Below, one piece after another: positions 265-59,064 of a DNA stretch of 64,000 nt. The stretch covers positions 33,438,527 to 33,502,526 of the forward strand of contig OX485808.1 in the NCBI GenBank assembly GCA_950295325.1, read 5' to 3'. The position numbers and the translations under genes are program-made. The notes under the pieces are model-generated. The model had not been told where the DNA came from. It saw nothing but the letters and a program-made list of their open reading frames with translations, and did not search any database. Numbering within the stretch: position 1 is the stretch's first letter; each line of letters starts with the position of its first letter. This DNA comes from Polytrichum commune (lineage: Eukaryota; Streptophyta; Polytrichopsida; Polytrichales; Polytrichaceae).

Positions 265-768
265 ACGAAGAGATTCGAGGAGAAGTGCGAAATTCAAAGC
301 GAGAAGGCGAGGTCCTGCTTGTGCAAACCAAGAACAAGGGGTATCAGCCTCGCAAGTACAGTGGTGGAAATCATCAGTGTCCCCGCAAACCGAGCATTGC
401 ACCCAAGGAAATGGGTGCCTGTCACTTCTGTGGAGGCAAGGATGTTCTCTGATGCCTCGGAGGTTCTGGAGGCACAAATTGCTAGCATGGATTTTGGTAA
501 AGGGAAGTGGTATTTAGACAGTGGTGCAACCAAGCATGTGACACCTGATAAGAGAGTTTTTGAGAAATTAGAAGTTGTAGAAGGTTCTTCCATTCAAACT
601 GCAGGAGGACAATCTCTCTTTGTTAAGGGCAAGGACCTGTGAGTGCAAATGGAATAAAGTTCGGTGAAGTTTTGTATATGCCAGGCTTGATTAAAAGCCT
701 ACTTTATGTAGGGTCAATAGCAGATGATGGGTACAAATTGCTCTTTGATTATGACCAAATGCATATAC
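265..768 (+). pseudogene. copia gag nucleocapsid and protease fragment
   Basis: From about 300 the frame reads as a basic nucleocapsid region leading into CHFCGGK, the first half of a CCHC zinc knuckle (about 420-440). The second half is damaged and a stop and frame change follow near 450. The protease then appears in another frame with the active-site DSGATKHV at about 520-545. A further stop and frame change fall at about 640, after which the protease-to-integrase linker continues until a 348-bp MITE interrupts it at 769. The coding frame picks up again directly after the MITE's right target duplication, as expected if the MITE is a later insertion. Confidence 0.8.
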
Positions 769-1116
769 CTCGGGGGGGGGGGGGGGTAGTCATTGGCTGG
801 AGTAGCAATATACGTGCGAACAAATGATAGGGTATTTTAAAAACATGGGGGCAAAAAATTATAAATGGACTTAAGAGTAATATAGGGTATCAAAAATGGC
901 ACTGGACATCTTTAAAGTACTATAGGGTATGGAATAATAGGTAATTTGGAATTATAAGTAATGCAAGCCATTTTTCTATTAACCCAAAGTAGAAATTTAC
1001 ATAATGATAGCATGTGAAAAAAAAAAGAATTGAAAGTAATACCCCCCTATAAAATAGTGGTTGTTCACACCTATATCCTTAACTTTTTAACACACTGCCC
1101 CCCCCCCCCCCCCGAG
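769..1116 (+). mobile_element. 348-bp hAT-like MITE, copy 2
   Basis: The element begins CTC plus a run of 15 G and ends with 16 C plus GAG, so the terminal inverted repeat is CTCGGGGG extended by the homopolymer. It is flanked by a perfect 8-bp duplication GCATATAC (761-768 and 1117-1124). An 8-bp duplication is the hallmark of hAT transposition. It sits inside the copia coding frame, which is continuous when the element and one duplication are ignored. It encodes no transposase and must be mobilised in trans. Confidence 0.92.
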
Positions 1117-2741: not shown

Positions 2742-3713
2742 TGTCGCAACCCTTGCTAGTCCCCTTAAAAATCTTGCCAATTTCCATTTCTAGCAAAAGT
2801 TACGAGTGCTAACCCTTCGCATTCCGCCATGCTAATGGTTAGCTCCTCCTACCCCAGACCATATAGTTCATAGGAGGGAACCAACCCTCCTACTTTGCTT
2901 TCGGGACTCACCACTTAATCCGTAACCCATTTTAACATTTGGACTTCCATCCATGAAAGTCCAATCCTATGTTGATCATCGCATTGCCGGAGCAACACTA
3001 CAACAACCCGAAGCATACTAGGCAACTATGGCCTCGCAATGGGCCAAAGCCCATGGAGGCCGTGCCGTTCGGCCTCGGGTGGTTGAGGCCACACCACCTC
3101 ACCCATATAAGCCTCTAGGACTTCACGCGGGGCCCCTACCCCACTGTCAACCAACCTCTTGTCTCTCTACCAAGAGTTGGGGCCAAGTGGACATTTTCCT
3201 TTAGCTGCTGGGCCTAGAACCCCCCCAGCAGCTTCAGACCATCATAACTTCCTTGTATGATGTCTGATCATAACAACCAACCACTCCATCTTCATCTACG
3301 CTTCACGGAGATGCCGATGGACTCCTCACTTTCCCCATTCGGGCAAGTCTTGAGGAAGTTATGCCTGTTTGAACCTTGGCAGTCCCAGGAATCACTCCCA
3401 GGCACTGTGTACCAGGGCGCTGTCCCGGGACACCGCCCCACTCAAATGGCCAGAACTCCTAGCTCACACCTCCGCTCGAGGTGATCTTGAGCATTCTAGA
3501 ATCACCACGCCATGAGCTACGCATAGCTCATGGCCTTATCCTCATGCCTCCTAGTTTCTGTGGGTGGGAGGCGTTCCCAACGCCCAGGGCCCTCACCCAC
3601 ACTAGGATCACTTGGGCCCTCTCACCAAGGGCGCCACAAGTCCCGGGTGTCACTCCGGGGTCCCCCTTATGCCCATGGTGTTTCGGGCACTCCTCATGTA
3701 GAGGTGCGCAACA
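2742..3713 (+). mobile_element. solo LTR (probably Ty3/gypsy) nested in the copia element
   Basis: This 972-bp block starts TGTCGCAACC and ends GCGCAACA, the TG...CA ends of an LTR. The flanks are ACTAT (2737-2741) and ACTGT (3714-3718), a 5-bp target duplication with one mismatch. The copia frame is continuous across the junction if the block and one duplication are ignored. A TATA-like CCATATAAGCC near 3103-3113 would fit an LTR promoter. It is GC-rich compared with its host and has no convincing coding frame. The TGTCRCAACC-type start is common in plant gypsy LTRs, so that class is likely but not proven. Confidence 0.8.
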
Positions 3714-3718
3714 ACTGT

Positions 3719-5225
3719 TCATCCAGGGTGGCAAGCAGTTATGGACCGGGAAATGCAATCAATTTATGACAATCATACATGGGATTTAGTTTCTTTGCCT
3801 CCAGGACGTACTCCTATTACGACCAAATGGGTGTATAAGGTGAAGGGGGATCATGCACGTAATATTGCAAAATTGAAGGCCCGACTTGTAGCTAGAGGAT
3901 TCTAGCAAAAAGAAGGGGATGATTTTGAAGAAACTTTTGCACCAGTTGTTAAATGGAACACTCTACGTACATTAGTGGCTCTAGCTGCTCACAGGGGCTA
4001 GAAATTTTTTCATCTGGATGCAGTGACTGCATTTCTCAACGGAGACATTATTCAAGATCTCTACATTGAGCAACCAGAGGGGTATGTAGTACCAGAGAAA
4101 GAAGAATTTGCATGCAAGCTTCTTAAAGCTCTTTATGGGCTTAAGCAAGCCCCTACAGCATGGTATAGTAAGATAGACTCATTTTTTAGTGAGAAATGAT
4201 TGCTAAAATCAGATGATGACTACAATCTCTATTACTTTGAGGAAGGAGGAAGAATAGATATACTTATTTTGTATGTAGATGATCTCTACATGACTGGTGA
4301 TCATGTAGAGAAGATCAATTGGTTGCGAGAAGAAATCAAGAAACAATTCTCCATGACCGACCTAGGAATTCTTACTCACTCACTAGGAATTGAGTTCATA
4401 TTTCATGAGCATGGAATCACTATGACTCAGAGGAGGTACATAACAACTACATTGGAGGAATTTGGACTCATTGATTGCAATTCTTCCTCCACTCCTATGC
4501 TGGAAGGGACTAAGCTTAAAACAGATATGGAGCAACCCTATGTTGATGCAAAATTGTATCAAAGAATGTTAGGGAAACTTATCTATTTAACTTAGTCTAG
4601 ACCTGACATAACGTACTCAGTCAGCATCATCAGTAGATACATGAACCAACCTCAAGTACCTCATATGCTAGCAGTTAAACACATTTTTAGATATCTAAAG
4701 GGGACTAAGAACTTGGGTTTGTGCTATAAACAAGGAGATTCAGATATCTTAAATGGATACGCAGATGCAGATTGGGCATGAGATTTACAGGATAGAAAAT
4801 CTACTACTTGATATATTTTTAGGTTAGGAGAGACACTCATTACGTGGAATAGCAAAAAACAAACTACAGTAGCACTTTCTTCAACTGAAGCTGAGTATAT
4901 GGCACTTACAGAAGGCACAAAGGAGGCCATATGGTTACGCATACTACTCCAAGAAGTTCAAGTACTTCAAGATACAACTCCAACAATGATTTTTGGGGAC
5001 AATCAAGGAAGTTTAAAGTTAGCTCACAACCCAGTTTTTCACTCTCGGACAAAACACGTGGACGTCCAACACCACTTCATTCGAGAAAAAGTAGAGTCGG
5101 GCCAAGTTACCCTAGATTATATTTCCACTAGAGACCAATTGGTCGACATCCTTACTAAGCCGTTGGGCAAAATTACATTCGAAAGATTGAGAGCTCAACT
5201 TGGATTAGAATGGATCACAAAATGA
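3719..5225 (+). pseudogene. copia reverse transcriptase and RNase H
   Basis: After the solo LTR the reverse transcriptase frame resumes with WQAVMDREM. It contains the typical plant copia blocks KWVYKVK, LKARLVARGF, LDAVTAFLNGD and LYGLKQAP, and the catalytic LYVDDLYMTG near 4270. RNase H follows with WNSKKQTTVALSSTEAEYMAL (about 4845-4905) and TKHVDVQHHFIREK near 5055. In-frame stops lie near 3903, 4000, 4197, 4594, 4780 and 4809, so it is dead. The final stop is at 5223-5225. Most stops are single-base changes rather than rearrangements, which fits an old copy drifting neutrally. Confidence 0.9.
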
Positions 5226-5574: not shown

Positions 5575-6842
5575 GAATCATGATCAGTGGCATTGAGTAT
5601 CATGATCTTAGTATGAATGGAATACTCTGACAGTGAATTGCAAGGTATGTACTTACGTGCAAAGTTTGGCCACATAGTTCTTTCACATCAAATAAGAGAG
5701 TAGATAAACTTGTTCCTGCCAGTTCAGAGATTGTATCGTTTACAAACATATTGCAAAGCTTTCAAAGAGATAAGTATTTGGGATCACTACCTCTCTATTC
5801 TGAAACCAGAAATTGACTGAACACTGAGCATATTATAATTGACCTGCATAAACTTGTTGGTATGTCTTTGAGATTGTTGTATTTACACTTTATCATATTA
5901 TGCTTAGAATAAAAGATTCCTTGAAACTTTCATATGAGAATCAGTGAGCATTCGATTTTCATCTGATTCCCACCACAGCATTAAGTTCTTTGATTTGCAT
6001 AAGCTGGAAGTTTCAAGAGTGAGATAATATTATCCACATGAAGGTGTGAAAGTGAGTATCTGATCTGAAATCAAGTTTTTCACCGTTTTCTTCTCATGTA
6101 TGGTTCCAGCATCCTCGGGGAGGGGGGGGGGGGTAGTCATTGATTGGAGTAGTAATACACGTGCAAACAAATGATAGGGTATTTTAAAAACATGGGAGCA
6201 AGAAATTATAATTGGGCTTAAGAGTAATATAGGGTATCAAAAATGGCACTGGACATCTTTAAAGTACTATAGGGTATGGAATAATAGGTAACTTGGAATC
6301 ATAAGTAATGCAAGCCATTTTTCTATTAACCCAAAGTAGAAATTTACATAATGATAGCATGTGAAAAAAAGAAGAGAATTGAAAGTAATATCCCCTATAA
6401 AATAGTGGTTGTTCGCACCTATATCCTTAACTTTTTAACACATTGCCCCCCCCCCCCCCCGCTAGCATCAAAGACACTTCACGAAGTGAATCACCAGAAT
6501 ATGACCTGCAGAGCACCTCCCAACAACCTCTATGGAAATTGAAATTCTCAAAGTCAGTAAGATGACAATCGGTGCAAACTTACAACACGACCTTCGCTTT
6601 GCTACTGGTTAACATGGTTGCAATGATCATACAATGGGCAAACAGTTATTGCCAACCTTTTTCCATACTTTTATAGATATTCTTGCGTTGCAGATTTGAA
6701 TCTCTAATGACGTGCGCAAGGCTCAATCTCAGGTGGATTCATAGGTGCTCTTGGTACCATGTAAATGCTTGTCATTCAGGAGACACTCTTTAGGTCAAGT
6801 CAAATGGAATATATTGGAGGGAGCACTTGAACAACAAGTGTA
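5575..6842 (+). repeat. segmental duplicate of 23309-24217, carrying a MITE
   Basis: Apart from the MITE at 6114-6461, this stretch matches 23309-24217 in order and orientation with few differences. The match begins at GAATCATGATCAG and ends at CAACAAGTGTA. The left boundary coincides with the copia end, so the copia inserted into this copy after the duplication. No intact gene is visible; the part from about 6560 also exists as inverted copies elsewhere. Confidence 0.9.
6114..6461 (+). mobile_element. 348-bp hAT-like MITE, copy 3
   Basis: It has the same length and orientation as copy 2. The left end is CTCGGGG, an A, then a G run; the right end is 15 C then G, with the last two bases of the inverted repeat lost. 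The target duplication is CCAGCATC (6106-6113) against CTAGCATC (6462-6469), one mismatch. The homologous segment at 23309-24217 has the uninterrupted target CCAGCATC at 23837-23844, so this window holds both filled and empty sites. Confidence 0.92.
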
Positions 6843-58085: not shown

Positions 58086-59064
58086 TGAAATATGGTTACT
58101 AACTTCACGCCACTAGGTAGCTATTTCATTTCAAAGCACCAAAGTACATCAAGCAAATCACACCATAATCTCAAAAAACTATCAAGCTTTACATACATGT
58201 TCCACTTGCCCTGGCTTTTTGTTACGACAATGAGCATATCACAACAACCCATCATGTCAATCCCCATCCTTTCATCAATCCCTCCGTTTGCAACATGTAA
58301 CCTTCCTTTTCAACAATCTGCAAATAAATCTAGAAACAATCTCAAGTACATGACCACATGGGAAGGGGGGGGGGTAACCGGCATTCCACTAGAAAACACA
58401 ATTTGATAAAAAGATAGGGTCTAAATTATTGTTTCTAGTAAGCAATATAAAAGCATTAAAAACAAGGGTTCAATTTGACATTAAAATTAGGTTCAAAGAT
58501 CTTGAATTTGTCAAGGCAAAGTCATTTGAGATGAATCAAACAAAAATGTGTAAGGGATGAAGGATGTTATGTTGGATGGATGTCGCATGCAACACTTCCC
58601 TCTCGTATTGCTTGCAAGCTTCACAGGGATGGATTGGAATGAACAATTGGTTGAGGGAGTTGTTTTTGTTGTTTTTTTCTTTAATTAGTTTTTTTATATT
58701 GTAGGGTGGGTTGGTCTATTTGACATTAGATTTATCTTGGAAGATCTTACATCTTTTAAAGACCAAGTCATTGAGACGAATGAACCATAAACCTAGGGGG
58801 GGTAAAGTTTTTACAATGGATAGAGAAGAGGTATACCGTAGGTTGATAGCAAGTTGGGCAAAAAAATTCCGAATAATTAATTAATTTCAAGAAATTGGTT
58901 GAGGCAAACTGTAGAAACATTTACATAAAATTGGGCAAATATGTCTATGTCTATGTCTATGCAAATATGTCATTTTAATTGAGATGAATCAGCCACAAAG
59001 TGATTTCATGTCGGATGCCCGACGAGAGGATGCTACATTCGAATGTGGAGATTCACGGGGCTGG

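Follow-up and report, generated by a model that had tools for sequence, protein, structure and literature searches.

The 348-bp MITE at positions 769-1116 of the window is a member of a clan that comprises five or more related MITE families, several of which carry a G/C homopolymer inside their terminal inverted repeats (TIRs). We hold it reasonably probable, at roughly two in three (0.66), that these MITEs are moved by a transposase which makes 8-bp target duplications, most likely a hAT, and that the homopolymer is a derived state of the TIR, grown by slippage.

The three copies in the window

The window, which is the whole stretch of 64,000 nucleotides analysed, corresponds to G000:C6:33438527-33502526 in a genome of 408 Mb. 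On the plastid contig, psaB is closest to the PDB chains 8htu_B, 6l35_B and 7ksq_B, which are of Physcomitrium photosystem I. Seven large contigs make up about 406 of the 408 Mb, and a seven-chromosome moss is the natural reading. The features of the three copies of the element (family 1) are as follows.

1-264, + strand: copy 1, cut at the window start (BLAST and the whole element fetched as L109, G000:C6:33438327-33438827)
247-261 and 262-264, + strand: right end of copy 1, C15 and GAG, respectively (from sequence)
265-272, + strand: right 8-bp target duplication of copy 1, ACGAAGAG (from sequence; present as a single copy at the empty sites in L161 and L162)
761-768, + strand: left 8-bp target duplication of copy 2, GCATATAC (from sequence)
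769-1116, + strand: copy 2, the 348-bp MITE under study (sequence, BLAST and empty sites)
769-786, + strand: left end of copy 2, CTC (769-771) and G15 (772-786) (from sequence)
812-820, + strand: subterminal ACGTGCGAA of copy 2, part of a motif common to the ends of related families (alignment of 14 ends)
827-835, + strand: first of three subterminal copies of ATAGGGTAT in copy 2 (read from sequence)
882-890, + strand: second subterminal copy of ATAGGGTAT (read from sequence)
922-930, + strand: third subterminal copy of ATAGGGTAT (read from sequence)
1098-1116, + strand: right end of copy 2, C16 (1098-1113) and GAG (1114-1116) (from sequence)
1117-1124, + strand: right 8-bp target duplication of copy 2, GCATATAC, exact (from sequence)
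6106-6113, + strand: left target duplication of copy 3, CCAGCATC (from sequence)
6114-6461, + strand: copy 3, with CTC and G4-A-G12 on the left, a tract interrupted by A (sequence and BLAST)
6446-6460, + strand: C15 of the right end of copy 3, followed by G, with the last two letters of GAG gone (from sequence)
6462-6469, + strand: right target duplication of copy 3, CTAGCATC, matching CCAGCATC at 7 of 8 positions (from sequence)

Copy 2 is exactly the MITE of the original prediction, with CTC and a G tract at one end, a C tract and GAG at the other, and an 8-bp duplication on both sides. The same description had been extended to all three copies, with 12-15 G on the left and 15-16 C on the right, and there it held only in part: the left end of copy 1, which lies outside the window in the fetched element, has only 8 G, and copy 3 departs from it in the interrupted left tract, the truncated GAG and the imperfect duplication. 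The left duplication of copy 1, ACGAAGAG, is likewise beyond the window edge, within L109. To call the copies near-identical was generous, copies 1 and 3 being 95% and 94% identical to copy 2 by BLAST. The subterminal ATAGGGTAT, present three times in copy 2, is a possible transposase-binding repeat. A BLAST search of the whole window with families 2-6 (see below) revealed no further members of the clan, and a G10 tract at position 58365 was rejected as a clan end, as no CTC stands beside it.

A 240-base query made by joining the flanks of copy 2 gave six matches: three other loci in one piece (96, 88 and 88% identity), the window's own two halves, and one partial match at 76%. At two of these three loci, L161 and L162, which are related Copia copies, the site of copy 1 and the site of copy 2 are both empty, and at each site the flank alignments overlap by exactly 8 bases, equal to one target copy. 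The MITEs of copies 1 and 2 thus entered one Copia retrotransposon independently of each other, by separate insertions. Between the two sites, L161 has about 124 extra bases in comparison with window positions 443-446. By eye, the coding region of the Copia element is apparently broken at window positions 2760-3720 by about 1 kb of GC-richer sequence.

Family 1 across the genome

The pattern CTC+G9 with TAGTCATTG further inward occurs at 825 genome places (426 and 399 on the two strands) and never in the reversed control, while CTC+G9 alone occurs at 2519 places against 453 reversed. A pattern with a longer inner anchor and a minimum of 5 G gave 993 left ends genome-wide (517 and 476; control 0). 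These controls reject a chance origin of the CTC+G ends, and the family is widespread. Target duplications were scored in 42 copies, namely the first 40 places of the pattern with TAGTCATTG plus copies 2 and 3 of the window. Exact 8-bp duplications stood directly outside CTC and GAG in 37 of the 42, with one mismatch in 4 and two mismatches in 1, which excludes the possibility, named at the outset, that most copies lack them. Of the 37, 35 were seen in the stretches first fetched and two (L001 and L017) in the longer stretches L061 and L062, the last being a rearranged double copy. The base past the 8 bp (position -9 compared with the last element base) agreed in 10 of 35 copies, which is the chance level.

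The 35 complete copies are 335-356 bp long and have CTC(G)n at both ends; their cores differ by a mean of 2.3% from the consensus and by 4.0% from each other. The family hence combines the hallmarks of MITEs: short elements with TIRs, target duplications with empty sites, and a high copy number of homogeneous members. At 348 bp, the element is too short to encode a transposase.

From the three neighbouring copies, recent local activity had been proposed. The spacing of left ends on contig C1 (the first 100 of the 993) fits a random distribution (KS p = 0.79); there are 3 gaps under 10 kb where 2.4 are expected, and the strand is shared by 45 of 99 neighbours. A local burst was rejected on account of this random spacing.

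A clan of families with related ends

Further families were found among the CTC+G9 places on contig C1. An alignment of fourteen ends from five or six families separates a left type from a right type and shows subterminal letters in common, and exact 8-bp duplications are also present in families 2, 3, 5 and 6. The relatives with no homopolymer have 15-bp TIRs, CTCGGGGAGGTCACT, CTCGGGGGGTTCACT and CACGGGTAGGTCACT, with a G-rich spacer of 7 nt, their common form being CWC, 7 G-rich letters and TCACT. The exact pattern CWC+7+TCACTCCCTCTTRTRTT matched 457 ends (186 and 271; control 0), and in 100 of them the spacer was GGGGGGT in 73, GGGGAGG in 6, AGGGGGT in 5, AGGGGGG in 3, and AGGGAGG and GGGGGGG in 1 each, the rest being other variants.

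Family 2 elements are about 820 and 1308 bp long, with 176 left ends (control 0) and exact duplications in L063, L110, L111 and L114. Family 3 elements measure about 600-640 bp; copy L182 is flanked by an exact duplication and bears CTCGGGGAGGTCACT at both ends, a perfect 15-bp TIR. The two ends of copy L170 are unlike, one being CTC+AGGGGGG and the other carrying a 14-letter tract. On C6, seven family 3 ends with tracts of 9 to 15 G lie in one orientation within 0.73 Mb (G000:C6:30008125 to 30738840), possibly one insertion copied in a repeated block, for which the flanks of L102, L118 and L119 were compared. Ends of a putative further family, family 4, were seen in L101 and L080. Family 5, with the ends CACGGGTAGGTCACT, comprises a 560-bp form and longer ones (691 ends; control 0), and family 6, with the ends CTCGGGGGGTTCACT, is 245-311 bp long. 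A longer family 5 form of 2103 bp with exact 8-bp duplications was seen in L106 (G000:C1:7170773-7173075) and L107; its interior is about 97% alike in three copies, and the 560-bp form looks like an internal deletion of it. In families 1 and 2 both ends have long tracts, as do some ends of family 3.

Which transposase moves the clan

The hAT-type assignment made originally is plausible from the 8-bp duplication, which together with the short TIRs makes a kinship of the clan with hAT likely; we settle on the term hAT-like and stop short of an assignment to hAT itself. The hAT tip consensus is YARNG, with A at position 2 and G at position 5. The tip CTCGG of families 1, 2, 3 and 6 has the G at position 5 but neither A at 2 nor a purine at 3, and the tip CACGG of family 5 has both A2 and G5 but no purine at 3. 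The search for an autonomous partner covered genes with the hAT domain (PF05699) and widely spaced pairs of clan ends. Genome-wide, 150 PF05699 matches were scored out of 1060 candidates, and the 3' flanks of 80 of these 150 (1.6-2.5 kb each) ended in a clan TIR in no case, so the autonomous hAT with clan ends that the original prediction had suggested looking for was not found at the 80 genes. Two of the 80 flanks (L060 and L099) hold a separate clan end that faces away from the gene.

Several larger candidates were discarded. The pair of ends at C1:41914368-41919148 (L101) has no matching duplication and encloses separate short elements. The family 5 elements L104 (4248 bp) and L105 (6081 bp) have exact duplications but are nested, and their coding interior is retrotransposon-like. 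The longer forms L106 (2103 bp) and L107 showed no transposase-like frame by eye. The interior of L076 matches the flanks of two hAT genes, the common stretch starting at the same point in each, and looks like another repeat. That repeat begins with GTGAGGCCAAA and has the same start point inside the clan end L076 (G000:C1:4849503-4850103) and downstream of the two hAT genes (L137 and L148). The retrotransposon-like frames lie at 860-3271 of L104 and 1718-5134 of L105 (G000:C1:35138697-35143144 and C1:58399479-58405759) and match RNase_H and PCIF1_WW, the latter at E 5.8e-10 in L104 and 5.7e-8 in L105; a PCIF1-type domain is unexpected in such an element. The C-terminal part of these frames had 98 scored matches out of 6111 candidates genome-wide, with open frames of up to 2638 aa.

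That the mobilising transposase is not a hAT but another enzyme making 8-bp duplications is somewhat unlikely, although several observations lean towards it: the departure of CTCGG from the consensus, the 80 hAT genes with no clan ends, and the duplicated targets, in which the preference nTnnnnAn is absent (21 of 65 have T at position 2, and 19 of 65 have A at position 7). Against it stand the 8-bp duplication and short TIRs, which fit hAT, the A at position 2 in the tip of sister family 5, and the abundance of hAT domain matches in this genome.

Tract length and its change after insertion

In 100 of the 993 family 1 left ends, 93 tracts were uninterrupted: 23 were 6-8 long, 6 were 9-10 long and 64 were 11-19 long, with 70 of the 93 at least 9 long. 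The right tracts of the 35 complete copies vary from 6 to 19 and are exactly 8 long in 11. For family 2 (100 of 176 left ends), the range is from 7, the lower limit of the pattern, to 22, with exactly 8 in 18 of 85 uninterrupted tracts. Lengths at the two ends of a family 1 copy are uncorrelated (Spearman 0.01, n = 35), and tract length shows no relation to the number of private changes (all p > 0.59). Tracts of G10-17 and C8-19 are already present in the nine least diverged copies, those with 0-1 private changes, and in 4 of the 9 the right end has exactly 8 C. Inheritance of these 8-C ends within a subfamily was not borne out, as the agreement between nearest neighbours was 9 of 35 with 17 expected. 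Sequence distance was weakly correlated with the difference in right C length (Mantel 0.11; 49 of 1000 permutations as high); for the left tract of the 35 copies, no Mantel correlation with sequence distance was found.

Some insertions were themselves duplicated with their surroundings. One, with the target duplication ATATTGAG and left flanks 95-100% identical, is present in four copies (G000:C1:543113, 599516, 746223 and 848964) with tracts of G16, G12, G11 and G11, a set useful for measuring tract mutation. L069 and L070 have 0 differences in 260 aligned bases and identical tracts, while L061 and L069 have 9 differences in 260 and tracts 5 G apart. L102 and L118 have a common flank (96%, 4 differences in 100) with G15 and G9, respectively; L119 has only the nearest part of this flank in common with them. 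Since one and the same insertion occurs with different tract lengths, the length changes after insertion. The original expectation that the tracts would be prone to slippage agrees with this behaviour.

Six-G ends are stable by comparison. All 14 family 6 copies had a right spacer of 7 nt, with a mean pairwise difference of 8.2%, so that the family's six-G ends are constant at twice the divergence of family 1 (8.2% vs 4.0%), with the reservation that family 6 mixes length variants (245-311 bp), and that its divergence is therefore not purely age. The 14 copies come from the first 20 of 100 places, and the sampling was conditional on a left spacer of 7 nt. The other six places divide into L182, L170 and L168, which differ in length but have exact duplications, and L164, L166 and L169, where a search for a convincing partner end found none. 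In all 70 places with at least 7 G before TCACTCCC, 14 ends have the extra T of family 6, and 8 of them have exactly 7 G; these compare with some 330 unexpanded ends of the family 6 type, a rough count extrapolated from the CWC+7+TCACTCCCTCTTRTRTT set.

Origin of the homopolymer

An unexpanded homopolymer has 7 G before TCACT in family 3 and 8 before CACT, CAGT or TAGT in families 1 and 2, which is the length of the interrupted spacers of the relatives. The simplest reading of this equality is a change of the interrupting A to G, followed by growth of the tract. The starting TIR would have had the interrupted spacer GGGGAGG; replacement of the interrupting A by G would have left 7 or 8 uninterrupted G, a tract beyond the slippage threshold, and replication slippage would then have lengthened and varied it to 9-22 at each end separately. 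The direction from A to G is suggested by the forms common to the relatives and not by a rooted tree, and slippage is apparently the cause of the growth. Recognition by the transposase would have to depend on the CTC tip and on the subterminal repeats, and not on an exact tract. As the least diverged copies already have long tracts, the long-tract elements have probably transposed, too. Two observations count against slippage-driven growth: tract length does not rise with age, so a simple growth from 8 G after insertion is not seen, and the 8-C class is unclustered on sequence despite the weak Mantel signal. With no age trend, tract lengths may differ among source copies or may be altered at transposition as well.

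A more far-reaching version is speculative: the clan's transposase might accept a distance between tip and subterminal sites that ranges over a dozen bases, cutting at CTC and ignoring the tract, whose length would be re-drawn for each end at each move. Such ends would carry a built-in mutable spacer, and the enzyme would possibly be a non-standard hAT transposase.

It is improbable that the tract lengths, above all the peak at 7-8, are an artefact of sequencing or assembly and that the true tracts are perhaps of one length. A read-level error would produce lengths that, as here, follow neither relatedness nor age nor the other end. Nevertheless, some 1000 copies repeat the homopolymer ends, and their CTC polarity is fixed, the same-insertion copies L069 and L070 agree in their tracts, and the short peak has the length of the relatives' interrupted TIRs. 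Moreover, a length of exactly 8 does not stand out among uninterrupted G/C runs outside the clan (1 of the 20 runs with at least 8, vs 11 of 33 right ends of the clan; Fisher p = 0.02), and A/T runs fall smoothly through this length.

Still more doubtful is a reset of tract length during transposition by end processing, fill-in or gap repair, each end independently receiving a short state of 7-8 or a long one. The two peaks with a trough at 9-10, the presence of both states in the least diverged copies, and the lack of a tie to relatedness except for the weak Mantel signal are in line with such a reset. Yet copies of the same insertion differ, so change does occur with no transposition, and two peaks could also arise from a random walk with a threshold, or be artefactual.

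Selection for a long homopolymer that aids transposition, e.g., as a G-quadruplex or a docking tract for the transposase, and is hence kept at both ends, would fit the long tracts at both ends of families 1 and 2, at family 3 ends and in the least diverged copies, but it is very unlikely given the 8-C ends in 4 of the 9 least diverged copies, the large numbers of families with no long tracts (691 ends in family 5 and 457 of the 7-nt type), the uncorrelated lengths of the two ends, and the 23 of 93 uninterrupted left tracts of 6-8 G, too short for a three-layer intramolecular quadruplex. An advantage from the G-quadruplex formation raised in the original prediction found no support.

Significance and comparison with known systems

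Models of transposase-DNA complexes treat TIR length and the distance from tip to subterminal repeat as fixed. The slippage-grown TIRs proposed here come as about a thousand natural ends, graded in length between 6 and 19 G at the family 1 left end alone, and the sister families supply an interrupted TIR or a six-G tract for comparison. If the assembled lengths are right, this series is a direct test of the spacing tolerance of a transposase; it would also show a mononucleotide tract passing from stable (6) to unstable (8 and more), with insertions and duplicates as controls. For MITE annotation, it is a warning that such ends may be masked as low complexity. Among the best-ranked matches in the open-licence literature, no report of MITEs with G/C-homopolymer TIRs was found.

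The Ac element of maize has 11-bp TIRs, which are not homopolymers. Ac/Ds, in the available portion of PMC3260210, resembles the clan in having non-autonomous elements with common short TIRs and subterminal repeats around very different interiors; unlike in the clan, the autonomous partner is known. Active hAT MITEs are represented by nDart1, dTok and nDaiZ of rice, which, as far as the consulted part of the source describes them, are, like the clan, short, non-coding and present in many copies, with short TIRs and 8-bp target duplications (PMC12595863). The clan differs from them in the G/C homopolymer of variable length in the TIR, the tip CTCGG, and the absence of a hAT partner at the 80 hAT genes.

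Hermes, a hAT of the house fly with 8-bp duplications, 17-bp TIRs and subterminal repeats bound by BED domains, could serve as a model of clan end recognition (PMC10368747, in the sections used here). Its first subterminal repeat is close to the tip and bound by the same protomer as the TIR, whereas the corresponding distance in the clan varies by a dozen bases (PMC10368747). Hermes also prefers nTnnnnAn targets, a preference which is not universal and which the clan targets do not follow (PMC10368747, PMC2803484, in the passages on target choice).

The nearest precedent, judging from the consulted part of PMC8449440, is the Ac-mMITEs of pineapple, in which (GA)n and (TC)n beside the MITE ends (the elements begin with GA and end with TC) are ascribed to replication slippage after insertion. 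Unlike the clan, these elements are Mutator-like, have 9/10-bp duplications and carry dinucleotide repeats at the outer border (PMC8449440). In the clan, the homopolymer lies three letters from the tip, within the TIR itself, and displaces the subterminal sequence inward. Overall, MITEs and microsatellite slippage are both known; what is new is that they come together within a TIR, in a length series accompanied by stable sister ends.
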